From Chitinophaga vietnamensis (GTDB taxonomy: Bacteria > Bacteroidota > Bacteroidia > Chitinophagales > Chitinophagaceae), in assembly GCF_902167635.1 (NCBI RefSeq), contig NZ_CABHMS010000010.1, forward strand, positions 124,001 through 188,000: 64,000 nt of DNA, written 5' to 3'. The position numbers were made by a program, and so were the translations under genes. Every line of letters starts with the position of its first letter. Within the stretch, counting starts at the first letter, position 1. Under the pieces are notes generated by a model that saw nothing but the letters and a program-made list of their open reading frames with translations, searched no databases and was not told where the DNA came from. Shown here piece by piece: positions 43,389-63,300 of the stretch.

Positions 43389-45818
43389 CTATTCCGTACG
43401 CAGGCATTTTACCGGGTTGGCTGCTGCCGCCTTCAATGCCTGGTAGCCGGTGGCCGCGAGGGCCAGCAACAATGCGCCAATGCCTGCTGCTGCAAACAGC
43501 TGCCAGCTCATCTGCGTGTGATAGGCAAAATGTTGCAGCCATTGCTGCATAGCGAAATAGGCGAGCGGTCCTGCCATCACAAAGGCCAGCAACACCAGCC
43601 GGATAAAATTACCCGATAGCTGCCCGGCGATGTGCATCGTAGTAGCGCCCAGCGTTTTCCGGATACCGATTTCCCTGGTGCGTTGCTGTACATCGAAAGT
43701 AGCGAGGCCGAAGAGGCCTAATACAGAGATCAGGATGGCGATGAGCGTGAAGTAATTCAATATGCTGAAGGTGCGTTGTTCCGCATTATAGTTACGCTGG
43801 AAATCATCGCTCAGAAAAGTATATTCAAAGGGTTCGCCCGGCAGTTGCGCTTTCCACTTGCTTTCCAGCGCAGCAATGGTTTGCCGCATATCGGCGGTAT
43901 TGGCATGTACCACGATGTAACTGTAAGCAGTACTGGCATTCAACAGGAAGGCATAGGGGGCAATTGGTTTGCGCAGGTCTTCAAAATGAAAATCTTTCAC
44001 CACGCCGGTGATCTCATACACCCGTAATTTTCCCTGGAAATTAAAATGGAGCTGTTGGCCAACAGCTTTGCTGAGCGGCACGCCGAACTTCCGCAGGGTG
44101 GCTTCATTCACCACCAGGCGGTTGCTGGTATCACTGCTGCCTGCCCGGAAGAAGCGGCCTGCAGCCAGTTTGAAGTCCATAGACTCGAGGAAGCCGGGCG
44201 CTACCCAATTCACATTTACCTGTTGAATATCGTTCACGGTTTGATCGGCACGGTAAAGGCTAAACGTAGTGGGGTTAGGTATGCCTGGATAGAACGTAGT
44301 GCCGGCGGCGCTTTTCACCTGGCTGTTATGCATGAAATTTTCGCAAAGAACCGTATAGGCATGTTGTGCGGCATTGCTGCGCAGCGGTATCACGATCTGT
44401 TGCTCCTGTTCAAATCCCAGGGGTTGTTTGCGCAGGAAATCCAGCTGATGGCGTACCGTGAGGGTAGCCAGTATCAATGTGCAGGCGATCACAAACTGGA
44501 ACACTACCAGTCCTTTACGCAAGGCAATGGCGGGAATGCTGTTGTTGAAGCGGCCTTTGAGCGTATCGAGCGGTTTGAAGGCGGCCAGGTAGAAGGCGGG
44601 ATAGCTGCCTGCCACAAAACCGGTGACCAGCGCCAGCCCGATGAAAGCGGCCGCGAGATAGGGGAGCGACGGCAGGAGACTGTTCATATCTTTTCCGCTA
44701 AGACGGCTGAAAAGCGGCAGTAGCAAGGCCGTGAGGCCAGCGGCCAGCAGCAGTGCAAAGAAAGTAAGGATAAAGGATTCGCCGAGGAACTGACGGATCA
44801 GCTCCTGTTTACGTGCGCCCAGCGCTTTTCGTATACCCACTTCCGTTGCCCTCCGAATAGAGCGTGCGGTGGAGAGATTCATGAAGTTCACACAGCCGAT
44901 CACGAGTATGAACAAAGCGATAGAAGCCATGATATAAAGATAGGAGCGGCTGCTCACGGCGGTTACGATCGTATTGAGACCGTCATAAAGATGCAGATCT
45001 GTAACCGGCACGAGGAAGATCCTTTTGCTGAAGCCCGCCTGCTGCAAATCCTTGCCTGCCACGTCTTTCATGAATACTGCCAGCTTGCGGTCCACCAATT
45101 TTGGATCAGCGCCGGGTTGCAGGCGCACATAGGTATAGAACATATTGTTGGTGGCGAAAGATGTGGACGTACGGAGGAAATCGCCCAGCCATCCTGCATT
45201 GAGCGGCAGGAAGAAATGCGCGTCGATATGTGAGTGATAGCTTTCATCGCGCACCACCCCCGTGACTTTGAAAGCGCTGTTACCGCCAAGGGTGATCACC
45301 TGGTTGAGCGCTGCATTTTCGCCAAACAGTTTTTTGGCGAGGATATCGGTGATCACAATGGAATTGGTTTCCTGCAAGGCATGTGTGCTGTCGCCTTCCA
45401 GGAAATGATAGCTGAACAACTGGAAGAAGGAGGGATCGGCCTGGCAGCCTCTTGTTTCGTAAAAGGCGCGTGGCGCTTGTCCTGCGGGCTGTACCTGCAA
45501 CAGCGTTTTATCTTCCGTCACAAAAAGGCGTGCGCTCTGTTGCACTTCCGGCAAGGCGTTGCTGAGAGCCGGCCCGTAAGATGCCGAGAGCATCGGATAT
45601 TCTTCTTTAGCGCCGGAAGCGATCATCGCTTCGCTGTTCACCAGGTACAGGCTGGCGGCATGTTGCTGGTGCTGGTCGTACGATAGTTCGCTGCGGACAT
45701 ACAGCGCCAGTAAAATACAGGCAGTAAGACCTGCTGCCAGTCCGCATATATTGATCAATGAAAAGGCCGGACTTTTAAGCAGGTTACGTATGGCTATTTT
45801 AATGTAGTTACCTGACAT
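43389..45818 (-). CDS. MacB/FtsX-type ABC transporter permease
   Basis: An 809-residue permease of the type frequent in Bacteroidota: two fused modules, each with a MacB periplasmic core and FtsX helices. Helix 1 is in FSLINICGLAAGLTACILLALY. The FtsX domain repeats near residues 290-420 (SIRRATEVGIRKALGARKQELIRQF) and again near the C-terminus (QQRTREIGIRKTLGATTMHI). No ATPase gene is adjacent, so the partner must be encoded elsewhere. The ATG at 45818 is preferred to 45857. It is divergent from the lanthipeptide cluster, so a link to self-protection is possible but unproven. Confidence 0.9.
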   Translation of the reverse strand: MSGNYIKIAIRNLLKSPAFSLINICGLAAGLTACILLALYVRSELSYDQHQQHAASLYLVNSEAMIASGAKEEYPMLSASYGPALSNALPEVQQSARLFVTEDKTLLQVQPAGQAPRAFYETRGCQADPSFFQLFSYHFLEGDSTHALQETNSIVITDILAKKLFGENAALNQVITLGGNSAFKVTGVVRDESYHSHIDAHFFLPLNAGWLGDFLRTSTSFATNNMFYTYVRLQPGADPKLVDRKLAVFMKDVAGKDLQQAGFSKRIFLVPVTDLHLYDGLNTIVTAVSSRSYLYIMASIALFILVIGCVNFMNLSTARSIRRATEVGIRKALGARKQELIRQFLGESFILTFFALLLAAGLTALLLPLFSRLSGKDMNSLLPSLPYLAAAFIGLALVTGFVAGSYPAFYLAAFKPLDTLKGRFNNSIPAIALRKGLVVFQFVIACTLILATLTVRHQLDFLRKQPLGFEQEQQIVIPLRSNAAQHAYTVLCENFMHNSQVKSAAGTTFYPGIPNPTTFSLYRADQTVNDIQQVNVNWVAPGFLESMDFKLAAGRFFRAGSSDTSNRLVVNEATLRKFGVPLSKAVGQQLHFNFQGKLRVYEITGVVKDFHFEDLRKPIAPYAFLLNASTAYSYIVVHANTADMRQTIAALESKWKAQLPGEPFEYTFLSDDFQRNYNAEQRTFSILNYFTLIAILISVLGLFGLATFDVQQRTREIGIRKTLGATTMHIAGQLSGNFIRLVLLAFVMAGPLAYFAMQQWLQHFAYHTQMSWQLFAAAGIGALLLALAATGYQALKAAAANPVKCLRTE

Positions 45819-45965
45819 GAGCAATGATTTAGAAGTGGCTGCCAGGAGGAGCGCCAAAGGGATGCCATAATCCAGCGATCAATACGGGCGGGCTTTTCAC
45901 GGGTTGCTGCGATCGCCAAACGTCCGCTTTTGATACGTATCTGTCCGAAGGCGGACAATCGGCAA

Positions 45966-46152: not shown

Positions 46153-46353
46153 ATGAAAAAGAAAAGACTGCCTTTAGAGAAAAAGCTTTTCCTGGGAAAA
46201 GCGCACATCGCTTCTTTGAACACACAACAACAATCAGCCATAAATGGTGGCGCAGCCTTCCTTACCCGCTTTACCATTTGCACTACTACTCAAACTGCGG
46301 TAGAAACCTGTTCAACCATTCCTCCTGGTCAAGATCTATGCGTTGCCTGCTAG
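46153..46353 (+). CDS. Lanthipeptide precursor 1 (LanA)
   Basis: A 66-residue precursor. The leader (residues 1-33) has the Bacteroidota GG-leader pattern: basic MKKK start, LEKKLFLGKAHIASLN, then QQQSAINGG. The core (34-66) holds four Cys (43, 53, 63, 66) and nine Ser/Thr, including a Thr-rich TICTTTQTAVETCST. LanB would dehydrate Ser/Thr, LanC would join them to Cys, and the C39 peptidase of the exporter would cut after GG. It is separated from the other precursors by a 600-base array of repeats. Confidence 0.88.
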   Translation: MKKKRLPLEKKLFLGKAHIASLNTQQQSAINGGAAFLTRFTICTTTQTAVETCSTIPPGQDLCVAC

Positions 46354-46368
46354 GCGCATCCATATAAC

Positions 46369-46982
46369 GCTACCAATATAGCGCTCCTCCGGAGCGTACG
46401 GGTAGATTGCATTGTATGGCTACCAATTAACGCTCCTCCGGAGCGATGTACGGGTAGATTGCATTGCACGGCTACCAATATAACGCTCCTCCGGAGCGAT
46501 GTACGGGTAGATTGCATTGTATGGCTACCAATATTGCGCTCCTCCGGAGCGATGTATGGGTAGACCACATTGTATGGATACCAATATTGCGGTCCTGCGG
46601 AGATGTATGGGTAGATTGCATTGTATGGCTACCAATATAACGCTCCTGCGGAGCGTACGGGTAGATTGCATCGCAGGGCTACCAATATTGCGCTCCTTCG
46701 GAGCGATGTAGGGTAGACCACATTGTATGGATACCAATATTGCGCTCCGGAGGAGCGATGTATGGGTAGATTGCGTTGTATGGCTACCAATATAACGCTC
46801 CTCCGGAGCGATGTACGGGTAGATTGCATTGTATGGCTACCAATATAGCGCTCCTCCGGAGCGATGAACAGGTAGATCGCACAATATGTATCCCCGCCAT
46901 GCGCCCCGCAGGGGCGGCATATTGGTAGCTCAAATGATATACCTACGCTTCCTGCGCCCCGTAGGGGCGCCATATTGGTAGC
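46369..46982. repeat. Tandem array of about ten hairpin repeats plus two inverted units
   Basis: About ten direct copies of a 50-53-base unit follow each other without spacers. Each starts GCTACCAATAT, carries a small hairpin CGCTCCTCCGGAGCG, and ends GGGTAGATTGCATTGTATG, with scattered changes. The last 120 bases hold two GCGCCCCGTAGGGGCG-type palindromes ending ATATTGGTAGC, the reverse of the unit border. These palindromes match those at 22155-22262. Open frames on the minus strand here are repeat artefacts. It is not a CRISPR array because there are no unique spacers. Confidence 0.92.
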
Positions 46983-47095
46983 CGCCATATGGGCAACATG
47001 AAACCGGCTATTATTTTTATTTCTTAACCCAGACCCGCTTTATCCCCGCTGTCACACCAGCCAGAGGGAAAGGTATGTCTATTAAAACCCAGTTT

Positions 47096-47269
47096 ATGAA
47101 AAAGAAAAAAGTATCCCTCAGCAAAAAACTCGTGCTGAAAAAAGAAGCCATTGTTAACCTGAACGCACAGGAACAAGCCAAAATCAATGGCGGCGCGCCT
47201 ATCACCTGGTGGAGCGCTTGCTGTGTTGAAACTGATGAGGTGACCTGCCCTGCTGGCTGTCACAGATAA
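47096..47269 (+). CDS. Lanthipeptide precursor 2 (LanA)
   Basis: A 57-residue precursor with the shared leader (MKKKK, LSKKLVLKKEAIVNLN, AKINGG, ending at residue 33). The 24-residue core has exactly four Cys (42, 43, 51, 55) and four Ser/Thr (37, 40, 46, 50). This balance would allow all Cys to enter rings. The core is paralogous to precursor 3 with the pattern P-x-T-x-W-S-x-C-C-V-x-T-x-E-x-T-C-P-x-x-C-x-R. The ATG at 47096 fits the other leaders; the frame from 47075 adds seven non-conserved residues. Confidence 0.9.
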   Translation: MKKKKVSLSKKLVLKKEAIVNLNAQEQAKINGGAPITWWSACCVETDEVTCPAGCHR

Positions 47270-47301
47270 GTTCTCCCATTATTCACCTTCATTCCACCCA
47301 C

Positions 47302-47484
47302 ATGAAAAAGAAAAAGCCTTTACTCAGCAAGAAACTCCTGCTGAAAAAAGATGCCATCGCTAACCTGAATGAAGCGCAACAAGCCAGCATCGCTGGTGGT
47401 ATGCCTGTTACCACCTGGAGCGTCTGCTGCGTAAAAACCAATGAGGCTACCTGCCCCGATGACTGCGTAAGAACTCACTTTTAA
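47302..47484 (+). CDS. Lanthipeptide precursor 3 (LanA)
   Basis: A 60-residue precursor with the same 33-residue leader type (MKKKKPLLSKKLLLKKDAIA, then ASIAGG). The 27-residue core carries four Cys at 42, 43, 51 and 55, the same positions as in precursor 2, and six Ser/Thr. It is clearly a tandem duplicate of precursor 2, diverged at about half of core positions. It lies 32 bases downstream of precursor 2 and 10 bases upstream of precursor 4. Confidence 0.9.
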   Translation: MKKKKPLLSKKLLLKKDAIANLNEAQQASIAGGMPVTTWSVCCVKTNEATCPDDCVRTHF

Positions 47485-47494
47485 AACACCATTT

Positions 47495-47692
47495 ATGAAA
47501 AAGAAAAAAATTGACCTCAGCAAAAAACTGCTGTTGAACAAATCAACAGTGGCTTCCTTGAACACCGACCAACAGCAGCAATTGCTGGGTGGTTTCGGCG
47601 TATCTGTGCTCTGTACAGACGACACCCGTCAGATCTCCAGCTGCCGCGCTACCAGCCCTGGCACTGGCCGTCCCTGCTGCCAGATACCTTGA
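47495..47692 (+). CDS. Lanthipeptide precursor 4 (LanA)
   Basis: A 65-residue precursor. The leader (1-33) again matches (MKKKKIDLSKKLLLNKSTVA, ending QQQLLGG). The 32-residue core has four Cys (40, 50, 61, 62) and eight Ser/Thr, with a different arrangement: VSVLCTDDTRQISSCRATS, then RPCCQIP. Here the double Cys is near the C-terminus instead of the middle. So the cluster makes at least three different product scaffolds. A hairpin (47717-47749) separates it from lanC. Confidence 0.9.
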   Translation: MKKKKIDLSKKLLLNKSTVASLNTDQQQQLLGGFGVSVLCTDDTRQISSCRATSPGTGRPCCQIP

Positions 47693-47716
47693 TAGCACCG
47701 GACTGTTTATTTTTTT

Positions 47717-47749
47717 ACAACCGGGAAGATGTCCTGTTTTCCCGGTTGT
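47717..47749 (+). promoter_or_regulatory. Stem-loop between precursor genes and biosynthetic genes
   Basis: ACAACCGGGAA (47717-47727) pairs with TTCCCGGTTGT (47739-47749), an 11-bp stem with an 11-base loop. No strong U-run follows. It may act as a partial terminator or RNA-processing barrier, giving more precursor than enzyme mRNA, as is known in other lanthipeptide operons. Confidence 0.5.
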
Positions 47750-47770
47750 ATATCATCAACCTCCTGGCAA

Positions 47771-48976
47771 ATGAATCCTGTTCCATTACCGCTGCAACAA
47801 CTTTATCACGACCTGGTCCAGCTGCTCCGCGAAGAGCGTTTTGATGCGGACTACGCCAACAGCCTCTTTAAAGGGCCCTGGGGAGCGCTCCTGTTTATGT
47901 TCTACTATGAGCAGTATGCCGATCCTACGGCAGATAATGCCACCGCCCTGCTGGAAAAGATATACGAGCAATACTCGATCGAGGAAGATAGCAGCTATGC
48001 CTTCTGTTCCGGCCATACCGGCCCTTTCTGGCTGTTGGATCATCTCAACAGGCATGGGTTCCTGGAGATGGATATGCAATACCTCGCGGATGATTTCGTG
48101 ACAGCTACGATTGTACAAAGCCGTGATCATCTCGATCATCTCAATTTCGATTTCCTGCATGGCAGCTCCGGCATGTGCAATTTCCTGCTGCATTACAGTG
48201 CCCGCCCCGATGTAGCGGCACACTTGCAGGAGTTTGTAAATGCGATGATGCTCCACAGCAAAATGACCGCCCACGGCCGCAGTCTGCCGCTCTTCTATAC
48301 GCATGAAAAGCCGGTGGGCACTTTCGTGGATGCTTTCAGTCTGGCTCATGGTTCCTGCTCCATCCTCATTATACTGGCAAAGATCTACCAGGCGGGCATC
48401 GCGCAGGAGCAATGCCGGCAACTGCTGCTCGAAAGTTTTCCTTTCATCCTCCATCATAAAAATACACCGGCGGAAGGCAGCTTCCAGGCGCTGTTTCCAG
48501 CCATACTGGACGGTCATTCGATCAACAGTCGTCTTTCATGGTGCTATGGTGATCTCAACGTAGCGCTGGCGCTCTGGCGTTGTGGCCAGGCTATCAACAT
48601 GCCTGCCTGGCAGGAAGAAGCCAAAGCGATCATGCATTATAATATTTGCCGCAATACGGATGAAGCGGCAGGTATCCTCGATAATTGTATCTGTCATGGT
48701 TCTGGCGGCATCGCCGCCTTTTACCGGAAGTTCTGGTTCGAGACGGGAGATATTGCTTTCTACCACTGCGCCAGCCACTGGCAGCGGCAAGCGGTGGAGA
48801 AAATTTCTTTTGATGAAGAAGGCCGCAAACACGGCATCAAAGTATGGCAGGGAAAAGACAAACAATGGGACTATGCCTGGGACCTGCTGGATGGCGGGGC
48901 CGGCGTGGGATTGTCGATGTTGTCGCACCTGCATGATACGCCACTGGCCTGGGATGAATGTTTCTTGTTGTCATAA
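47771..48976 (+). CDS. lanC: LanC-like lanthionine cyclase
   Basis: A 401-residue alpha/alpha-barrel cyclase that adds Cys thiols to dehydrated Ser/Thr to form (methyl)lanthionine rings. The zinc ligands are present: Cys 258 in LSWCYGDLNVA and Cys 308/His 309 in NCICHGSGGIAAFY. Earlier family repeats include FLHGSSGMCNFLLHY and FSLAHGSCSILIILAKIY. The ATG at 47771 is preferred to 47729, which would cover the stem-loop. It is followed 13 bases later by lanB. Confidence 0.94.
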   Translation: MNPVPLPLQQLYHDLVQLLREERFDADYANSLFKGPWGALLFMFYYEQYADPTADNATALLEKIYEQYSIEEDSSYAFCSGHTGPFWLLDHLNRHGFLEMDMQYLADDFVTATIVQSRDHLDHLNFDFLHGSSGMCNFLLHYSARPDVAAHLQEFVNAMMLHSKMTAHGRSLPLFYTHEKPVGTFVDAFSLAHGSCSILIILAKIYQAGIAQEQCRQLLLESFPFILHHKNTPAEGSFQALFPAILDGHSINSRLSWCYGDLNVALALWRCGQAINMPAWQEEAKAIMHYNICRNTDEAAGILDNCICHGSGGIAAFYRKFWFETGDIAFYHCASHWQRQAVEKISFDEEGRKHGIKVWQGKDKQWDYAWDLLDGGAGVGLSMLSHLHDTPLAWDECFLLS

Positions 48977-48989
48977 AAAATAATTGAAA

Positions 48990-51900
48990 ATGGCACTTTC
49001 GCATAAAGGGTTTTTCCTGTTGAGAACTCCGCTATACCCTGTAACCCGCTACAGGGAGGTGTTACAGGACAGCCTGTCTGAGCTGGCCGCCGCACATCCG
49101 CTGTTCCTGTATGCGCTGTGCATTGCTTCCAAAGACCTGCTGCGGGAACTGGAACGCGCCATCGCCGATCCTGCGGCGTTTAACCAGAAGAAGCTCGATA
49201 AATTACGCCGCTCTCTTTATAAATATTGGGTACGCGCCTGCACGCGCAGCACGCCCTACGGCATTTTCGCCGGATGCACCACCGGCGCCATCGCCGGCAA
49301 CACAGTGATACAATTGCAAGATATTACCGCCGCACATCAGCATGTGCGACTGGACATGGATTATTTCACCAAAATCTGCGACCACATACAGCAACTCCCG
49401 GAAGTGAAGCCGGTACTGCGTTACAGCCCGAACAACAGCATATACCCGGCGGGCAACAAATACCGTTATGCAGAATATACTATTCAGCATAACTACCGCA
49501 AGTACCTGCTTACTTCCGTGGAGGACTCTGTATTTATGGAGAAGATATTAGGGGAAACCCGCGCGGGATCAACTGTAGCGGAGATCGTTCAAATGATATT
49601 GTCGGAAGATGATACCATCGCGCAGGAAGAGGCGGAAGCTTTTGTGGAAGAACTGATACAATCACAATTGCTGATACCGGATATTTCACCGCAGATCACA
49701 GGCCCCGATCAGCTACAGGCGCTGATCAGCCGTTTGTCGTCGGTGGCAGAGGCGGAGGTCCTGTACCAGTCTTTATGCGGCCTGCAGCAATTGTTGCGCC
49801 AGCAAGACTTTGCGCGCACGCGGCTCAATAGCATCCAGCAAATGTGCGAAACGCTTTTTCCTTTGGAAGCGCCGAAAGACCTGCTGCAGGTAGATCTTTT
49901 TAAAACGGCCCATACCTGCACCCTGAGCGAAAAACTCGTGAGCGATATTACCACGCAGGTGAACCGTTTGTTATCTATCTGCCACGGCTATACGAAATCA
50001 CAATCGGAGATGAGCAACTTTGCGGCCCGTTTCCGTGAGCAATATGAATCGCGGGAGATGCCGCTCAGCTTTGTGCTGGACGCGGAAACCGGCATCGGCT
50101 ATGGCGGCGCTACGGAACAAACGGTACATACGCCTTTCGTGGAAGACGTGTCCAATGGCCCCGCTACAGAAAACGCGACGGTGAGCTGGTCTGCCCTGCA
50201 ACAGTTATGCCTGGATAAATACGAAACATTCCTGAAGGAAGGAGGAGGTACGGTGTACATCACCGATGAAGACCTTCAAAAACTGGGCGACCCGGAAACG
50301 GTGAACATGGCCAACAGCTGCTATCTCTTTGGTACGGTGCTGGCCGCATCTGCGGAGGCGGCAGATAATGGCGACTACCAGTTTGCGATGCAGTCGATGG
50401 GCGGCCCTTCCGCCGCCAACCTGCTCGGCCGCTTCTGTAGCGGCGATCCCGTGTTGGCCGCCAAACTGGCTGCCACACTGGAAGAGGAGGCTGCTGCGCA
50501 TCCCGATGCCATACTCGCGGAGGTAGTGCATTATCCTGAAGCGCGTGCCGCCAATGTATTGATCAGGCCCGCTTTGCGGCCTTATGAAATACCGTATATC
50601 AGCGTGCCTGCCGCCACGGCAGATCATCAGATACCGGTATCCGACCTGCTGGTGAGCGTGCGGGGCAATGATGTGATCCTCCGCAGCAAAAGGCTCAACA
50701 AGCGCGTGATGCCGCGCCTCAGCTCTGCGCATAATTACAGTTTCAATAGCCTGCCGGTGTATAAGTTCCTCTGCGATCTGCAACATCAGTCGGTGGTATC
50801 GCATCTGTCCTGGGACTGGGGCGTGCTGGCTTCCCGGCAGCGATTGCCGCGTGTAGTGTATAAAAATATTATCCTCGCCAGGGCAGGATGGACGCTTACT
50901 TTTAAAGAGGTAGAGCAGCTGGGAGAAGCAGAGGCCGCACTACTGTCCTTTTTCACGGAATACCGTTCACGGCATGCCATGCCGGCGCTGGTATTGCTGG
51001 CAGAAGCAGATAATGAACTACTGATCGATCTCACACAACCCGCGTCTATACAGGTGTTGATGGAACATCTGCGGAGTAAAGGCCATGCAAAGCTGAAAGA
51101 ATTTATCAATGGCGAAACAGAAGGCCTGGTGCGCGATGCGCAAAACAACGTATATGCGCACGAGTTATTACTGCCGCTCACCTGCATGCCTGCTGCCGCC
51201 AAAACGGCTACGATGGCTGCTCCGCGGCGCATGATCCTGGATGGACCCATGCGTTCTTTTACGCCCGGCAGCGAATGGCTATTTGTAAAGATCTATTGTG
51301 GATTTAAAACTGGAGAAGAATTGCTGGCCGGTTATTTTGCCGCGCAGCTTCCGGAATGGCAGGAGGATGGCCTCTTTGAGCAGTTTTTCTTTCTGCGCTT
51401 CGGCGATCCGCAGCCGCATATCCGCATCCGTTTTCTGAACAGCGCGCATCCGGCGAACAATGATGTGATACTGCACCGCATCGCCGCCGCCATGCAGCCT
51501 TTCATTGCGTCGGGGCAGGTGAGCAAGGTGCAATGCGATACTTACGTAAGGGAGATAGAAAGATATGGCGCGGAGACCATAATGTATTGCGAGCAATTGT
51601 TCATGGCCGACAGCCAGGCGGTATTGGGCATCATCAGCATGCTGGATGGCGCCGAGGGCGAGGCCTTCCGCTGGAAACTGGCCCTGCGCGGCGCGGGCAT
51701 GCTGCTGGAAGATTTCGGGCTGAGCATCTCCGAACGCAAAAACCTGCTGGCCGCGCTGCGGGAGAGCTTCATCACCGAATTTGGCGGCGCTAAATTGCAG
51801 CACAAAGCACTCAACGATAAATACCGCAAGCATCAGCAGGAGATACAATCATTTATGCAGGCAGCGGATGATGAGAAGAACGAGATCACAGAAGCAATTG

Positions 51901-52121
51901 AAATGTTCCAGGCGAGAAGCGCCGTGACGGCACCTTTGGCGGAGAAGATACAATCGCTTTGCAGAGATGAAAACCGCTATCGCGATATCGTAGCCAGTCA
52001 TCTTCATATGTTCCTCAACCGCATCTTCGTGGCTAAACAACGCAAGCACGAACTGGTCATTTACTTCTTCCTCGAAAAATACTATTTGTCACAACTGGCC
52101 ATGGCCGCTACTATACGATGA
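48990..52121 (+). CDS. lanB: Full-length LanB lantibiotic dehydratase
   Basis: A 1043-residue class I dehydratase. It uses glutamyl-tRNA to glutamylate Ser/Thr of the precursor and then eliminates glutamate. The N-terminal glutamylation domain shows the signature RSTPYGIFAG at residues 86-95 and runs to about 730. The C-terminal elimination (SpaB_C-type) domain begins near 750 (PGSEWLFVKIYCGF, then FFLRFGDPQPHIRIRF). Both domains are in one chain, unlike the split dehydratase reported for pinensins of Chitinophaga pinensis. The ATG at 48990 follows lanC by 13 bases, and the stop overlaps lanT by 4. Confidence 0.95.
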   Translation: MALSHKGFFLLRTPLYPVTRYREVLQDSLSELAAAHPLFLYALCIASKDLLRELERAIADPAAFNQKKLDKLRRSLYKYWVRACTRSTPYGIFAGCTTGAIAGNTVIQLQDITAAHQHVRLDMDYFTKICDHIQQLPEVKPVLRYSPNNSIYPAGNKYRYAEYTIQHNYRKYLLTSVEDSVFMEKILGETRAGSTVAEIVQMILSEDDTIAQEEAEAFVEELIQSQLLIPDISPQITGPDQLQALISRLSSVAEAEVLYQSLCGLQQLLRQQDFARTRLNSIQQMCETLFPLEAPKDLLQVDLFKTAHTCTLSEKLVSDITTQVNRLLSICHGYTKSQSEMSNFAARFREQYESREMPLSFVLDAETGIGYGGATEQTVHTPFVEDVSNGPATENATVSWSALQQLCLDKYETFLKEGGGTVYITDEDLQKLGDPETVNMANSCYLFGTVLAASAEAADNGDYQFAMQSMGGPSAANLLGRFCSGDPVLAAKLAATLEEEAAAHPDAILAEVVHYPEARAANVLIRPALRPYEIPYISVPAATADHQIPVSDLLVSVRGNDVILRSKRLNKRVMPRLSSAHNYSFNSLPVYKFLCDLQHQSVVSHLSWDWGVLASRQRLPRVVYKNIILARAGWTLTFKEVEQLGEAEAALLSFFTEYRSRHAMPALVLLAEADNELLIDLTQPASIQVLMEHLRSKGHAKLKEFINGETEGLVRDAQNNVYAHELLLPLTCMPAAAKTATMAAPRRMILDGPMRSFTPGSEWLFVKIYCGFKTGEELLAGYFAAQLPEWQEDGLFEQFFFLRFGDPQPHIRIRFLNSAHPANNDVILHRIAAAMQPFIASGQVSKVQCDTYVREIERYGAETIMYCEQLFMADSQAVLGIISMLDGAEGEAFRWKLALRGAGMLLEDFGLSISERKNLLAALRESFITEFGGAKLQHKALNDKYRKHQQEIQSFMQAADDEKNEITEAIEMFQARSAVTAPLAEKIQSLCRDENRYRDIVASHLHMFLNRIFVAKQRKHELVIYFFLEKYYLSQLAMAATIR

Positions 52122-54316
52122 TGGGATTCACTTTTTTCAAACAGCTGGATGCGATGGACTGCGGCCCTACCTGCCTGAAGATGATAGCAAAATATCACGG
52201 CCGCGACTATCCGCTGGAATATCTGCGGCAGCAGTCGGGCATTACGCGCGAAGGCGTTACCCTGCTCGGCATCAGTGAGGCGGCGGAGAAGATCGGTATG
52301 CGCACCAACGCCGTGCAGGTCACCTTTGAAGAGCTGGACGAGCTGGTGGAACTGCCTTGCATCCTGCATTGGAACCAGCAGCATTTCGTGGTGCTGCCCC
52401 CACAGAATTACGACCGGCATAAAAAAAATGACAAGATACTTGTGGCAGATCCTGCACATGGCATGGTAAAGGTAGACAGGGCCACCTTTCAGCGTTGCTG
52501 GCAAGGTAACCGGAACCGCGGGGTGGCGCTGATGTTGGAGCCCGGCGAAAATTTTTTTGCCCTGAAGTCGGAGAAGCCCGCCCGTAGCGGCTTTCGCTTC
52601 CTGTTCCGCTACCTGAAACCTTACCGCAGGCAGGTAGTGCAACTGATGCTTAGCCTGCTGCTCGCCAGTTTGTTATCGCTCATCGCGCCCTTTCTCACAC
52701 AGAGCCTGGTGGATGATGGCATCAACCGGCATCATATCGGTTTTGTATACCTGGTGCTGTTTTCGCAGCTATTGCTGTTTGCCGGTGCTACCGCTATCGA
52801 AATGATCCGCAGCTGGATATTGTTGCATATGAACAGCCGTATCAATATTAACATCATCTCTGATTTTCTCATCAAGCTGATGAAATTGCCGATCCGTTTT
52901 TTTGATACGAAGATGATCGGTGATATCCGTCAGCGCATCAACGATCATACCCGCATACAAGCTTTTTTAACCGGTACTACTTTGTCTACACTTTTTTCAT
53001 TTGTGAACCTCCTCGTATTTGCCGCGGTGCTGGCGGTATACAGCTGGAAGATATTATTGGTGTTTGTATTTTTCAGTGCGGCGGCTATTACGTGGATATT
53101 GTTTTTCCTGCGCCGCCGCAAGGCGCTCGACTACAAACGTTTTCAGCGGATGAGCGAAAATGAGAACGTGCTGTTCGAAATGATCACCGGTATGCAGGAG
53201 ATTAAACTGAATAATTGTGAAACAGCGCGCCGCTGGGAGTGGGAGCATGTGCAGGCGGGCCTGTACCGCATCAATGTGAAGGGCCTGGCCCTGGGGCAGT
53301 ATCAGCAGCTGGGGGCGGTTTTTTTTCATCAGCTTAAAAATATCCTTATCTCGTTTATCACCGCAACAGAAGTGATGAACGGGCATCTAACGCTGGGGAT
53401 GATGTTATCCGTGAGTTACATTATCGGGCAGATGAATAGTCCGCTGGATCAGTTGCTGACCTTCATTCAATCTGCGCAGGACGCCAAGATCAGTTTAGAC
53501 AGATTGGGGGAGATCCATGAGCGGGAAGAAGAGGAGGCGCCGGAACGCGCGCCGGGCGTGCCTTCCCGGCTGAGTGGCGGGGATATTCATCTGCATCATG
53601 TATCCTTCCGTTATGGCGCGCGGCAATCCGCCTATGTGTTGCAGGATATCAACCTTACCATTCCGGAAGGCAAGGTGACCGCTATTGTGGGTACCAGTGG
53701 CAGTGGTAAAACTACCCTGATGAAATTGTTGTTGCAATTCTATGCGCCGGATGAAGGCACTATCACCGTTGGCGGTCAGCCACTGCAAAGCATTTCACCG
53801 AAGTGGTGGAGGAGGCAATGCGGCAATGTGATGCAGGATGGATTTATTTTTTCGGCCAGTATTGCAAAGAATATTGCGATCAGCGATGAAAAGATCGATC
53901 AGGAGAAGTTGATAAAAGCGGCGGAAGCGGCCAATATCAGGGATTTCATCGAGGCTTTGCCGGCGGGGTATCAAACGCGTATTGGTACGGCTGGCAATGG
54001 CATCAGTGCAGGGCAGCGGCAACGTATCCAGATCGCGCGGGCGATCTATAAGGATCCATCTTATCTTTTCTTTGATGAGGCGACGAGCGCGCTGGATGCC
54101 AATAATGAGCGGGTGATCATGCATAACCTGGAACATTTCTTCCGGGGGAAGACGGTGGTGGTGATTGCGCATCGTTTAAGTACGGTGCGGCATGCGGACC
54201 AGATCATTGTGCTGGATAAGGGCCGTATTGTGGAGCGGGGCACGCATGCCGCGCTCACGGCCAATCGTGGTAATTATTTTGAACTTGTAAAAAACCAGCT
54301 GGAGCTGGGCGCCTGA
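52118..54316 (+). CDS. lanT: C39-peptidase ABC exporter (LanT-type)
   Basis: A 732-residue fusion. Residues 1-140 are a C39 cysteine peptidase that cleaves after double Gly: catalytic Cys 15 in MDCGPTCLKMIAKYHG, His in NQQHFVVLPP, Asp in VADPAHGM. Residues 160-450 are six membrane helices. Residues about 490-732 are the ATPase, with Walker A GTSGSGKTT near 525, signature ISAGQRQR near 628 and Walker B YLFFDEATSALD near 648. It should both trim the leaders of the four precursors and export the products. It overlaps lanB by 4 bases. Confidence 0.96.
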   Translation: MMGFTFFKQLDAMDCGPTCLKMIAKYHGRDYPLEYLRQQSGITREGVTLLGISEAAEKIGMRTNAVQVTFEELDELVELPCILHWNQQHFVVLPPQNYDRHKKNDKILVADPAHGMVKVDRATFQRCWQGNRNRGVALMLEPGENFFALKSEKPARSGFRFLFRYLKPYRRQVVQLMLSLLLASLLSLIAPFLTQSLVDDGINRHHIGFVYLVLFSQLLLFAGATAIEMIRSWILLHMNSRININIISDFLIKLMKLPIRFFDTKMIGDIRQRINDHTRIQAFLTGTTLSTLFSFVNLLVFAAVLAVYSWKILLVFVFFSAAAITWILFFLRRRKALDYKRFQRMSENENVLFEMITGMQEIKLNNCETARRWEWEHVQAGLYRINVKGLALGQYQQLGAVFFHQLKNILISFITATEVMNGHLTLGMMLSVSYIIGQMNSPLDQLLTFIQSAQDAKISLDRLGEIHEREEEEAPERAPGVPSRLSGGDIHLHHVSFRYGARQSAYVLQDINLTIPEGKVTAIVGTSGSGKTTLMKLLLQFYAPDEGTITVGGQPLQSISPKWWRRQCGNVMQDGFIFSASIAKNIAISDEKIDQEKLIKAAEAANIRDFIEALPAGYQTRIGTAGNGISAGQRQRIQIARAIYKDPSYLFFDEATSALDANNERVIMHNLEHFFRGKTVVVIAHRLSTVRHADQIIVLDKGRIVERGTHAALTANRGNYFELVKNQLELGA

Positions 54317-54322
54317 TAAAAT

Positions 54323-54829
54323 ATGCCGGAACAAAAAACATTTACACATGCCTCGCTGGAAGAGGTGCGCAGTGAAGAGGTGCAGGAGCTCATGGGCAAG
54401 ATGCCGCCGTGGATTGTGCGCAGCGGTATTACGATGATCGGTATTGTATTGTTATGTACTCTGGTGATGGCCGCCTGCCTGCGTTTCCCGGAGGTGGTGG
54501 CGGTGCGTGTATCCGTGAGAGGTAGTGAGGTGCAGGCGGTGGTGCCGTCAAAAGATGTATGGAAAGTACGTCCGGGCCAGGCGGTGGTGATCCGGTTGGA
54601 TGCCTATCCATATGAGCAGTATGGCGTATTACAGGGGATGGTGCAAACGATTCCATTCGCAATTTCTGATACTACTTTCACCTGCAGGATAAAATTGAAA
54701 CAGGGGAGGACTACGGCTACGGGAAAGGTGATCCCTCTGCAACCCTTGCTGGTGGCTGATGCGGAGATTGTAATCAGTGAAAAGAGCTTGTTGTACCGCT
54801 TATCAAGGCATTTCTTAACCAGTAATTAA
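54323..54829 (+). CDS. Very short HlyD-like membrane-fusion protein
   Basis: A 168-residue protein with a cytoplasmic N-terminus, one membrane helix at about residues 35-53 (GITMIGIVLLCTLVMAACL) and a periplasmic lipoyl/beta-barrel-like part (VRVSVRGSEVQAVVPSKDVW, VRPGQAVVIRLDAYPYEQYG, then FTCRIKLKQGR). It lacks the long alpha-helical hairpin of normal HlyD/LanT adaptors (usually 350-450 residues) that meets TolC. The gene is 6 bases after the exporter, so it is part of the operon. It may be a reduced adaptor or serve the exporter without an outer-membrane channel. Confidence 0.8.
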   Translation: MPEQKTFTHASLEEVRSEEVQELMGKMPPWIVRSGITMIGIVLLCTLVMAACLRFPEVVAVRVSVRGSEVQAVVPSKDVWKVRPGQAVVIRLDAYPYEQYGVLQGMVQTIPFAISDTTFTCRIKLKQGRTTATGKVIPLQPLLVADAEIVISEKSLLYRLSRHFLTSN

Positions 54830-55259
54830 CAAACGGTAAGGATGCAGAATCATAAATGATTTACTAACTTGAGTAATAATAGAGAGCGTAATATCTGTCC
54901 AGACTAATCAGGAAAAACGAAACATATGATAAACATCTGCTGAGATGTATTACCTTTGCGCAAATTTTTCCATATCCCAATTTGAAAAAAGTGAACATGC
55001 TTTAATTACAACAGACCCTGATTGTTTGTAATGACGAGGAGATGCAGATTCATTTAAAAAATAAATATTGTATCGATGCCAAGAGACGTTGTCATTCCCA
55101 GTAACCCGTTTACCACTGATGATTCCGCTAAAACGTTTTACACCAGCCTTTAGGTAGTTTGTATTCCCGCGATGCGGACGGGATGTTATTGTTATGCCAA
55201 TGGAGGGAGCGGCCCATTGTGCCAAGGGATATTGATTGTATGTTTTGAACTTTGATTGC
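54830..55259. other. Intergenic region between the transporter and sigma-factor genes
   Basis: These 430 bases are A/T-rich. They contain a promoter-like site (54933-54958) and several short open frames on both strands, including a 119-codon minus-strand frame that overlaps the sigma gene; none resembles a known protein. I see no convincing small gene. A leader of roughly 290 bases before the sigma gene is possible. Confidence 0.5.
54933..54958 (+). promoter_or_regulatory. TAnnTTTG promoter with an adjacent inverted repeat
   Basis: TACCTTTG at 54951-54958 fits the -7 consensus. Just before it, ACATCT (54933-54938) and AGATGT (54943-54948) form a 6-bp inverted repeat that could be an operator. 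It would drive a transcript leading into the sigma-factor gene. Confidence 0.45.
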
Positions 55260-55820
55260 ATGAATGTGAATGCTACAAATGACAGTGAAGGAAATGAGCT
55301 GAGCAGCATTTCTTTTAAAGATCTTTTTACTCAGCAATACAGTTGGTTATGTTATTGTGCAGCAAGGGTGACACGTGATATGGATATTGCGAGGGACCTG
55401 GTACAGGATTTTTTTGTGTATTATTGGGCCAATCGTGAACAGATCAGGATCACCGGCACTTTTAAATCGTATGCTACGCGGGCGGTATTGAACCTGGCTG
55501 CATCGTATGTGCGGAAAGACCGTACCCGGGAACAGCATTATTCGCAATTACCTTCGGACGAATGGGAAGACAGCTTCGGGCAACGGCATGCGGAGCGGGA
55601 GTATGAGGCGCGCAGCAGCAAGCTGTTTGATGCCATTGGCAGTTTACCCGCCCAAAGGCGCAAGATCCTTATCCTGCACCAGTTTGGCAAAATGAAATAT
55701 ACCGAGATCGCCGATAAAATGGGCGTGAGCAAGAATACCGTTAAAACGCACTTGAAACTGGCGTATCGCATTTTAAGGGAAAATTTAAAAATTATTATGA
55801 TTATATTCACCCCTTTTTAG
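55260..55820 (+). CDS. ECF-type RNA polymerase sigma factor (FecI-like)
   Basis: A 186-residue sigma-70 of the ECF group. Region 2 is at residues 20-90 (LFTQQYSWLCYCAARVTRDM, ARDLVQDFFVYYWANRE). Region 4 is at about 125-175 (LPAQRRKILILHQFGKMKYT, EIADKMGVSKNTVKTHLKLA). The ATG at 55260 is preferred to the TTG at 55236. An anti-sigma gene follows 31 bases later, the usual FecI-FecR order. No SusC gene follows as it normally would; the closest operons are the lanthipeptide cluster upstream and PorP/OmpA downstream. Confidence 0.93.
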   Translation: MNVNATNDSEGNELSSISFKDLFTQQYSWLCYCAARVTRDMDIARDLVQDFFVYYWANREQIRITGTFKSYATRAVLNLAASYVRKDRTREQHYSQLPSDEWEDSFGQRHAEREYEARSSKLFDAIGSLPAQRRKILILHQFGKMKYTEIADKMGVSKNTVKTHLKLAYRILRENLKIIMIIFTPF

Positions 55821-55851
55821 CGATAGACCAACTTAATATTGAAATAACTCA

Positions 55852-56694
55852 ATGTCGTCTGAAAATAGCCATATCAATTGGGACGCAATTTTAGCAGCAT
55901 TGGAGAACGAGGAGAGTGGTGCGGAGATACCGCTGACAGAGGAAGAAGCACGTTGGGTGGAGACGTTCCGGGAATTAGGACAAACGCCCTTTCTTACCGA
56001 GTCGTTGTTGTTACCAGTTGAAGAAGATTTCTGGAAAGTGGCGGCCAGGGCCGGATTACAAGCCCCGGCTGTTGAAAAGAAACCGGAAAACACAACAGGC
56101 AGATTTATCCCTTTGCTGAAATTGGCCCGCCTTAAGGCCGCCGTGCTGCTAGTGATGATAGCAGCGGGAGCTATGGCCGTTTGGTTGCTCGGAAGGAGAG
56201 AAGCCAGGCCCGCCCTGAGGCCGGAATCCGATCCTTCCCTGCTGTACAACACCAATGCCAGCTTCGATCATATTCACGCAGACGGTTCCGAATTGCCTTG
56301 CAACTGCTGTTGTGCTCCCTCCTGCCCACAGAGAGGTAACCTCATGGATCATATCCTGCTGGATGGCGATGGCGACGACAGTAGCGTGATCACCGTTCCC
56401 AATTGTTTCATCAGGGAAACAAACAGCTGCATCCGCCTGGCTTCCTGTCGCCCCGTTACCAGGAAAAAAGATAAATTACTGTTCACACATTCCAGCCTGG
56501 AAGATGTAATGAAAGCTTTCGCTATGCACTACGATCTCAATTATCACTTCCTCGACGATGATAGCAAAAGAATATTACTCAATGGTATTGTTACGCTCAC
56601 ACCGGCGCCGCATGCATTGTTGCATCCGCTGGAGCAGGCCACAGGACTGAAACTGAGGATGTGCAGTGATACCGTATTCATCTCTCATAAATAA
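55852..56694 (+). CDS. FecR-like anti-sigma factor with Cys-rich periplasmic segment
   Basis: A 280-residue protein with a cytoplasmic N-terminal part (residues 1-94), one membrane helix (about 95-113) and a periplasmic part. The last 75 residues (LLFTHSSLEDVMKAFAMHYD, then LLNGIVTLTPAPHALLHPLE) look like the DUF4974/secretin-like end of FecR proteins. The usual central FecR domain is replaced by a short region with nine Cys in the periplasmic part, five of them at 150-158 (CNCCCAPSC). It probably holds the sigma factor at the membrane; the Cys cluster could bind metal or sense redox state or lanthipeptides. Confidence 0.8.
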   Translation: MSSENSHINWDAILAALENEESGAEIPLTEEEARWVETFRELGQTPFLTESLLLPVEEDFWKVAARAGLQAPAVEKKPENTTGRFIPLLKLARLKAAVLLVMIAAGAMAVWLLGRREARPALRPESDPSLLYNTNASFDHIHADGSELPCNCCCAPSCPQRGNLMDHILLDGDGDDSSVITVPNCFIRETNSCIRLASCRPVTRKKDKLLFTHSSLEDVMKAFAMHYDLNYHFLDDDSKRILLNGIVTLTPAPHALLHPLEQATGLKLRMCSDTVFISHK

Positions 56695-60325: not shown

Positions 60326-63300
60326 ATGATACGGAAACTTTACCTGTTACTGACTTGCTTCTTTTTACTTGCGCTGACGGCTAAGGCGCAGGTGGGCGTT
60401 GGTACCACTACGCCTGATGCTTCGGCAGCCCTGGATGTGACGGCGGCCGACAAGGGGGTGTTGGTGCCGCGGATAGCGCTGCGGGATGTAATGGATCCTT
60501 ATCCCGTGGCGGTGGCGCCGGCAAAGGGTTTGCTGGTATTCAACACAGCTGCGGGCGTAAAGGGCGGCAACGGAGCCGGCTTCTATTATTGGAGCGGCGC
60601 TGATGGCAATCCGGCTAACAAATGGATCTATGTTGGCGGTGATTTTCTTACGGAGATCACCAATAACAAGGTATTGCGTGATTCTATCATCAACCTCATC
60701 AAAAGTTCCGGGCAGAATATGCGCTCGAAAAGCAACAAGCTGGTGATAGCTGGCGGAGATAGCAGCGTGCTGAAGCCGGTATGGCTGGATATTGATATGA
60801 AGGCCTTGCTGACGGATTCGCTTTTCCGGGATACGGTGATCAGCCTGATCCGCAGCCGGGATATCAGGAAAGACAGCGTAGGTAAGTCCGGGTTTATTGA
60901 CTTGTATGATAGCAATGGCAATGTGTTGTCGAGGGCCGATAGCAGTGTATTGAAATATTTCAGGATAGGGGTGAACTCCCGCGGGTTGCGCGATAGTGTG
61001 AGCACTGTGGTGCTGGATAGTTTGAATAGAGGCCGTGTGAGAGATAGTGTATTGCAGATGACCAGCCGTAATATTAAAGATAGTTTGATCAAGAGCACCA
61101 CGTTCCGTGATAGTATGTTTGTAAACCTTCGTGGCAAAGCGGATAGCGTTGGCAAACGTGGCTTCATTGATTTGTATGATGCCAATGGCAATGTGCTGTC
61201 GCGGGCGGACAGTAGTGTATTCAAGCATTTTAAAATCGGTGTGAATTCCCAGGGTTTCCGTGACAGCGTAAGCACCGTAGTGTTGGATAGTTTGAATAAG
61301 GGCCGTGTGAGAGATAGCGTCTTGCAGATGACCAGCCGTAATATTAAAGATAGTTTGATCAAAAGCAACACGTTCCGTGATAGTATGTTTGTAAACCTTC
61401 GCGGCAAGGCGGATAGTGTTGGTAAACGAGGTTTCATTGATCTCTATGATATCAATGGTAATGTGTTGGCGAAGTCCGATAGCAGTGTATTTAAGCACTT
61501 TAAGATCGGTGTGAACTCGCTTGCTTTCCGTGATAGCGTAAGCACTGTAGTGCTGGATAGCCTCAACAAAGGCCGCGTGAGAGATAGTGTCTTGCAGATG
61601 ACCAGCCGTAGTATTAAAGATAGCTTGATCAAAAGCAACACGTTCCGAGATAGCATGTTTGTAAACCTCCGTGGCAAAGCGGATAGCGTTGGGAAGCGCG
61701 GTTTCATTGATCTCTATGATATCAATGGTAATGTGCTGGCGAAGTCTGATAGTAGTGTATTTAAACACTTTAAGATTGGTGTGAATTCCCAAGGCTTCCG
61801 GGACAGTGTAAGCACCGTAGTGCTGGATAGTTTGAATAGAGGCCGTGTGAGAGATAGCGTCTTGCAGATGACCAGCCGTAGTATTAAAGATAGCTTGATC
61901 AAAAGCAACACGTTCCGTGATAGCATGTTTGTAAACCTTCGCGGCAAAGCGGATAGTGTTGGCAAACGTGGCTTCATTGATCTCTATGACATCAATGGCA
62001 ATGTGCTGGCGAAGTCTGATAGTAGTGTGTTCAAGCACTTTAAGATTGGTGTGAACTCCCAAGGCTTCCGTGATAGCGTGAGTACAGTGGTGCTAGATAG
62101 TTTGAATAGAGGCCGTGTGAGAGATAGTGTATTGCAGATGACCAGCCGTAGCATTAAAGATAGTTTGATCAAAAGCACCACGTTCCGTGATAGCATGTTT
62201 GTAAACCTCCGCAGCAAGGCGGATAGCGTTGGGAAGCGTGGCTTCATTGATCTCTATGATATCAATGGTAATGTGCTGGCGAAGTCTGATAGCAGTGTGT
62301 TCAAGCACTTTAAAATCGGTGTGAATTCACTTGCTTTCCGTGATAGTGTAAGTACCGTCGTGCTGGATAGCCTCAACAAAGGCCGTGTGAGAGATAGTAT
62401 CGTTAACATGGTGACCAATAATAAAGTCATCCGCGATAGTATCTTCAATAACCTCCGAGGAAAAGCGGATAGTGTTGGTAAACGTGGCTTCATTGATCTC
62501 TATGACATCAATGGCAATGTGCTGGCGAAGTCTGATAGTAGTGTTTTCAAGCATTTCAAGATTGGTGTGAATTCCCTTGCTTTCCGTGATAGCGTAAGCA
62601 CCGTAGTGCTGGATAGTTTGAATAGAGGCCGTGTGAGAGATAGTGTATTGCAGATGACCAGCCGTAGCATTAAAGATAGTTTGATCAAAAGCACCACGTT
62701 CCGTGATAGCATGTTTGTAAACCTCCGAGGCAAAGCGGATAGCGTTGGTAAACGTGGTTTCATTGATCTCTATGATATCAATGGCAATGTGCTGGCGAAG
62801 TCTGACAGTAGTGTGTTCAAGCATTTCAAGATTGGTGTGAATTCCCAAGGCTTCCGTGATAGCGTAAGCACCGTAGTGCTAGATAGCCTCAACAAAGGTC
62901 GTGTGAGAGATAGTATCGTGAACATGGTGACCAATAATAAAGTGATCCGTGATAGCATTTTCAATAACCTCCGAGGAAAAGCGGATAGTGTAGGTAAACG
63001 TGGCTTCATTGATCTCTATGATATCAATGGTAATGTGCTGGCGAAGTCTGATAGCAGTGTGTTCAAGCATTTCAAGATTGGTGTGAATTCCCAAGGCTTC
63101 CGTGATAGCGTAAGCACCGTAGTGCTGGATAGCCTTAACAAAGGCCGTGTGAGAGACAGTATCGTGAACATGGTGACCAATAATAAAGTCATTCGCGATA
63201 GCATCTTCAATAATCTCCGAGGTAAAGCGGATAGCGTTGGTAAACGTGGTTTCATTGATCTCTATGATATTAATGGTAATGTGCTGGCGAAGTCCGATAG

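Follow-up and report, generated by a model that had tools for sequence, protein, structure and literature searches.

The present analysis concerns a window of 64,000 nucleotides from Chitinophaga vietnamensis (the window being this whole stretch of DNA), in which positions 46153-54829 read as a class I lanthipeptide cluster with several precursors and intact-looking enzymes. Eight genes follow one another on the + strand in the list of open reading frames (ORFs) and in the sequence: four small precursor genes, then lanC, lanB, the gene of an ATP-binding cassette (ABC) exporter carrying a C39 peptidase, and a gene of 168 codons for an apparently reduced HlyD-type adaptor. NF038153 is the "class I lanthipeptide" leader model (cut-off of 22 bits), and the core family names alpha, beta, gamma and delta were coined in this analysis. 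The features are as follows:

46153..46353, + strand: precursor 1 (NF038153, 42.6 bits), beta-type core
46369..46881, no strand: tandem array of a 53-bp unit (about 10 copies) whose core is palindromic, separating precursor 1 from precursor 2
47096..47269, + strand: precursor 2 (NF038153, 45.8 bits), gamma-type core
47302..47484, + strand: precursor 3 (NF038153, 49.4 bits), gamma-type core
47495..47692, + strand: precursor 4 (NF038153, 45.0 bits), delta-type core
47771..48976, + strand: LanC cyclase (PF05147, partial TIGR03897 match, WCYG and CHG motifs)
48990..52121, + strand: LanB, predicted one-chain glutamyl-tRNA-dependent dehydratase (PF04738 and PF14028, alignment with NisB 4wd9)
52118..54316, + strand: C39 peptidase-containing ABC exporter (PCAT; PF03412, PF00664, PF00005, Cys 15)
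54323..54829, + strand: putative collar-only HlyD-type adaptor, 168 amino acids (aa) (partial TIGR01843 match, 8dck profile match, predicted structure)

All the genes named in the initial annotation are present where it placed them. The tight spacing that it described holds for the later genes (the exporter gene and lanB share a 4-base overlap) and fails for precursor 1, which the repeat array sets apart from precursor 2. Judged from the alignments, precursor 2 probably starts at ATG 47096, in line with the other precursors, and not at 47075; LanC and LanB probably start at ATG 47771 and ATG 48990, from where their homologues align, ATG 47729 and TTG 48984 being also possible.

All four precursors exceed the NF038153 cut-off. 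This model matches 10 places in the whole 6.3 Mb genome, four of them in a 1.5-kb part of this cluster, and we therefore rejected the idea of chance or misread precursors. The leaders had been described as one common GG leader; all four do match the model, yet they are similar rather than identical. The LxLxKx5L motif occurs in 4/4 leaders and FxLD in none of the four. Each core contains four Cys, together with nine Ser/Thr in precursor 1 (AAFLTRFTICTTTQTAVETCSTIPPGQDLCVAC, beta-type), four in precursor 2 (APITWWSACCVETDEVTCPAGCHR, gamma-type), six in precursor 3 (MPVTTWSVCCVKTNEATCPDDCVRTHF, gamma-type) and eight in precursor 4 (FGVSVLCTDDTRQISSCRATSPGTGRPCCQIP, delta-type). For precursors 1 to 4, the monoisotopic core masses calculated are 3461.63, 2634.11, 3042.32 and 3354.56 Da in linear form, and 3299.54, 2562.07, 2934.25 and 3210.47 Da if all Ser/Thr are dehydrated.

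LanB combines PF04738 (E 6e-156) and PF14028 (E 1e-63), the glutamylation and elimination domains, in one chain of 1043 aa, as initially annotated. It was aligned with NisB (4wd9) and 9g04, and ten NisB columns were read by hand: the residues are the same as K79, R83, R87, T89, D121, D299, R464, R786, E823 and R826 of NisB, which we take to be catalytic residues of the dehydratase. The C-terminal motif SHLHMFLNR lies beyond the part aligned with NisB. LanC (PF05147, E 5e-28), aligned with 8byk, has WCYG at 257 and CHG at 308, the places of the zinc ligands (Cys, Cys-His) that the initial annotation had recognized. In the exporter, the C39 domain (PF03412) is fused N-terminally to the ABC membrane and ATPase domains, and the active-site motifs DAMDC (Cys 15, intact as previously noted), QQHF and VADPAHG (Cys/His/Asp) are present. 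The catalytic positions examined are thus kept in LanB, LanC and C39, which identifies the locus as a class I lanthipeptide cluster whose machinery looks, from these motifs, capable of working; together with the four precursors, this bears out its initial description as a multi-product cluster.

The type of cluster has already been described for Bacteroidetes. According to a 2020 survey (PMC7268733, Walker et al.; all papers are cited here from excerpts of their text), class I LanAs of Bacteroidetes carry LxLxKx5L instead of FxLD, many end their leader with Gly-Gly, and a C39 protease is often found in the cluster. Leader motif (NF038153), GG site, C39 protease, LanB and LanC are alike there and in the window. 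Therefore, neither this kind of cluster nor its pairing of leader and C39 is new, whereas the core families of the window, their order and its collar-only adaptor were not met in the excerpted survey. The best NCBIfam score of LanC is with the cyclase part of LanM, below the cut-off, in keeping with the reported grouping of certain class I LanCs from Bacteroidetes with LanM (PMC7268733). Two other Bacteroidota clusters, from Chryseobacterium OV715 and Runella limosa, share the LanA/LanB/LanC set, and their LanB and LanC introduced seven dehydrations and three rings when supplied with matching tRNA-Glu and glutamyl-tRNA synthetase (PMC9993889); they belong to other genera and are likened to the window by gene content, not by sequence.

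The same genus produces the antifungal pinensins (PMC9248904), and the cluster could in principle make pinensin-like antifungals. Genus and class I chemistry are the same, and the LanM-like cyclase recalls what has been reported for Bacteroidetes LanCs of the precursor family to which pinensin belongs (PMC7268733). However, the pinensin LanB is split (PMC7268733) and that of the window is one chain; furthermore, the split LanB of another genome of the genus (L097, a stand-in for pinensin's own sequence) is only 28-30% identical to it, and the L097 LanC 24%. We therefore rejected a pinensin-type cluster, in agreement with the initial distinction from the split-dehydratase kind, and consider pinensin-like products very improbable. 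Chitinocin of C. flava, an unsequenced antifungal peptide of 1,852 Da (PMC10239826), was also rejected as a product, being lighter than all four calculated window cores. A split LanB (736 + 294 aa) was also seen on a contig titled uncultured Bacteroidales (L086:4761-7856), where a binning error is possible; LanB has been reported absent from Bacteroidales (PMC10352776).

The contig scan for relatives retained 80 of 97 confirmed loci, and precursors were searched on the + strand of the window and of L011-L024 (15 loci) with a profile made from the four window leaders (E < 0.5). This search revealed 92 precursors (1-20 per locus), the cores of which include four recurring families: (i) alpha, C-TYDP--TCES-PRP, (ii) beta, TC-TIPPG---C--C, (iii) gamma, TWWSACCVETDEVTCPAGC, and (iv) delta, ISSCRATSP----CCQIP. 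Fourteen of the 15 loci have a delta core, which always comes last among their precursors; alpha occurs in 11, always as the first precursor, and is absent from the window; gamma was detected in 11 loci by a first regular expression and in 12 once a second one had added the copy of L012. A scripted check found the order alpha-beta-gamma-delta kept in 11 of the 14 loci that have at least two precursors. That the same cores recur, and do so in a set order, speaks for conserved functions, and the recurrence of these families over the genus suggests, at the level of sequence, a conserved mixture and not freely diversifying toxins. Against this stand the three loci with a broken order (L013, L024 and L021); by eye, L013 and L024 each have one divergent GG-less frame out of place, and the regular expression matches of L021 appear spurious.

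Two further observations concern the precursor repertoire. Chitinophaga solisilvae has 20 precursor-like genes within one such cluster (L012:1490-6666), and a further LanB cluster of the window's own genome (L099:3223-4351) encodes Gly/Ser/Cys-rich cores such as ATSTGCGSGSSTC.

The peptides could be signals or developmental factors rather than antimicrobials. The recurrence of the core families across the genus would fit such a role, as would the lack of the lipid II motifs SxxxCTP(G/S)C (nisin) and TxTxEC (mersacidin) in all 92 cores, on which ground the group of lipid II-binding lantibiotics was rejected. Moreover, if the cassette, the adaptor and frames antisense to the precursors are set aside, every ORF group (at least 90 aa) is limited to 4 or fewer of the 15 loci, and therefore no conserved immunity gene is visible. 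Conversely, conserved cores would fit a toxin with a conserved target equally well, and the pinensins of the same genus are antifungal (PMC9248904); we regard a signalling role as rather unlikely.

The new feature of this cluster is its exporter with a collar-only adaptor. The small HlyD protein of the initial annotation is present and incomplete: its C-terminal beta-domain alone matches HlyD, with TIGR01843 over model positions 308-404, below the cut-off, and in a profile comparison with residues 355-464 of 8dck, and Pfam gives a sub-threshold match only. The protein is made of an N-terminal tail, a single membrane helix (about 29-52) and a beta-domain; it has the anchor and beta-domain of HlyD, and neither lipoyl domain nor helical hairpin. 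Compared to the adaptor of the related locus L022, it has about 265 residues fewer, the gap falling in the middle part, and the hairpin is absent from its predicted structure. In HlyB/HlyD, the beta-domain rests on the transporter and the hairpin extends to TolC. From its sequence and model, the short adaptor thus appears to consist solely of the membrane anchor and the collar, the beta-domain by which HlyD rests on HlyB, with the TolC-reaching parts gone. The general roles of adaptor domains have been described (PMC8277102, PMC3807786). The HlyB/HlyD type 1 secretion system (8dck, 7sgr) is alike in the anchor and beta-domain of its adaptor and in its ABC partner, which comes from the same broad family; it differs by its lipoyl domain and hairpin and by the C39-like domain of HlyB (PMC8277102), that of the window being of the active type. 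BesA of Borrelia is hairpin-less, but it keeps its lipoyl domain and serves a resistance-nodulation-division pump (PMC3807786), whereas the window adaptor lacks both parts. A short adaptor in such lanthipeptide clusters was not found among the open-access papers listed.

Up to four lanthipeptides would come from the locus. LanB would dehydrate core Ser/Thr by means of glutamyl-tRNA, and LanC would form thioether rings with the Cys residues, four in each core. The C39 domain would cleave after Gly-Gly, and the exporter would transport the peptide from the cytoplasm. The HlyD-type partner would be reduced to a collar round the periplasmic mouth of the transporter, which it probably shapes or gates, and would be unable alone to span the periplasm to TolC. 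We consider this whole proposal, from the four lanthipeptides to the adaptor reduced to a collar, highly probable. One point against it is that a described product of the cluster was not found among the open-access papers listed; the same result fits the initial suggestion that the mature products are undescribed, without proving it.

The short adaptor is a widespread partner of this cassette. In a sample of 79 Chitinophaga genomes (own genome included), a LanB match of any strength occurs in 56; in 20 of the genomes the LanB shares 55% identity or more with that of the window, the next lower value being 42%; among the plasmid matches listed, the best LanB is only 37% identical. The order LanC-LanB-C39 exporter is kept in 13 of the 14 loci L011-L024, and no exporter or adaptor was found in L021 (Taibaiella). 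When adaptor frames were paired with LanB places by contig and distance, the cluster adaptor proved short in 18 of the 20 genomes with a close LanB (169-197 aa in 16, 245 and 266 aa in two) and full-length in the other two (G030, 452 aa; G050, 453 aa). In L011-L024, a set overlapping in species with these genomes, it is short in 12 of 14 (including L019, 242 aa with a low-complexity insert) and full-length in L022. Its ratio of nonsynonymous to synonymous substitution rates (dN/dS) is 0.06-0.24 in five close pairs, three of which involve L013; in each of these pairs it is higher than the exporter's own value, and in the L015/L016 pair also higher than those of LanC and LanB. The short adaptor is under purifying selection, and it is neither a sequencing error nor a stray remnant.

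At G034:C1:574359-577610, only pieces of LanB are found (58-64% identical), and the short adaptor frame next to them (182 aa) is open; this locus is perhaps a decaying copy of the cluster. One might accordingly regard the short adaptor in general as a decaying remnant beside an exporter that works without it. Gram-positive PCATs do work without such an adaptor, and both the some 265 residues fewer than in L022 and the decayed-looking cluster of G034 would agree with this explanation. The dN/dS values, the short form at 18 of 20 clusters and the frame still open beside the broken LanB of G034 speak against it and make it improbable.

Short frames are not restricted to the cluster. Within the genus, others of 176-198 aa lie away from it (for example in G053, G046, G044 and G078). 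Frames of 200-272 aa also occur, some with a lipoyl-like part and hairpin-less by eye. In 298 genomes of the order, a sample with few Chitinophaga, the adaptor frames among the matches listed are mostly of about 420-470 aa; five of those listed are below 200 aa (G000, G268, G367, G145 and G143), two of which seem to be split or truncated where a contig ends. For 38 C39 exporters a tree was built, with 25 labelled rows (6 full, 16 short and 3 intermediate), leaving aside 13 rows without a usable neighbour; among the latter are L073 and L089, in which the adaptor extends past the end of the locus. Three changes are required for the short form on the best tree, and the starred branches force two; the tree comes from a short search and has long branches, two of which join each other. 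The change count itself gives no direction, and we infer that the changes ran from full to short. The two short forms of Pedobacter cryoconitis are placed next to L073 and L089, and what is visible of the adaptors there (219 and 329 aa) is already longer than the short form.

Since the adaptor lacks lipoyl domain and hairpin, the peptide would most likely be freed into the periplasm, or be passed to an outer-membrane channel by another protein. We tentatively propose a two-step route, in which the exporter and a collar-only HlyD never touch an outer-membrane channel and deliver the peptide to the periplasm for separate exit or action there, a reduction that would have occurred more than once in Bacteroidota. 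Several observations weigh against this view of the adaptor and its route: the model of the short adaptor is of moderate confidence (predicted template modelling score of 0.55), with a high root mean square deviation to 7sgr and without a control model of a full-length relative; the own genome has 60 OEP (TolC-type) matches and one full-length adaptor (406 aa), elsewhere and adjoining another C39 exporter; and all the short-adaptor genomes except the own one (17 of 18) have a frame of 429-460 aa elsewhere. These full-length adaptors and OEP matches are what an ordinary three-part type 1 system would need, in which the TolC-docking hairpin is contributed by a full-length adaptor from another locus that associates with the short one. 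However, the full-length adaptor of the own genome adjoins its own C39 exporter, and in L022 a full-length adaptor lies directly behind the cluster exporter; therefore, the loss at the locus would have altered this exporter machine itself. We hold the three-part arrangement to be a possible, somewhat doubtful alternative to the two-step route. Elsewhere in the own genome (G000:C1:163067-165424), a third C39-ABC gene is followed by a 149-aa frame matching the N-terminal part of the adaptor.

Besides the eight genes, the cluster contains the repeat array, whose copies (about 10, head-to-tail) may uncouple precursor 1 from the remaining genes. The unit gives 21 matches across the genome, seven of them inside the array and those elsewhere degenerate, and the stretch 46354-46995 has an RNA folding far stronger than shuffled sequences (z -11.7). 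A scan for Bacteroidota-type promoters gave one match in the window, outside the cluster (1.22 expected); sigma-70 sites are fewer than in shuffles, and terminator-like sites number 16 compared to 10.6 (standard deviation 3.4), two of those listed lying within the array. Rfam (gathering threshold) and tRNA scans gave no match. Downstream, at 55236-56694, an extracytoplasmic function (ECF) sigma factor is encoded together with a protein whose C-terminal FecR match is below threshold; a role for them as cluster regulators was not supported, the ORF group of each occurring in only one of the 15 loci, although L012 and L018 contain sigma factors 24-28% identical. The permease at 43389-45857 (MacB/FtsX-like by eye) was rejected as an immunity gene, the case being too weak with a related gene near only one of the 14 relatives (L016). 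Long tandem repeats of about 246-270 bp occupy 60905-64000, in a large open frame reaching the window end.

Few Bacteroidota lanthipeptides have been made so far (PMC7268733, PMC9993889), and this cassette, present in 20 of the 79 Chitinophaga genomes sampled, offers four recurring core types for testing. The collar-only adaptor splits two jobs that are normally fused in HlyD, support of the ABC transporter and the link to TolC. Closely related exporters that have either a short or a full-length adaptor provide natural pairs for studying the function of this protein part by part, and the crossing of the outer membrane by small peptides. If true, the two-step route would be a periplasmic delivery path for lanthipeptides of Gram-negative bacteria.

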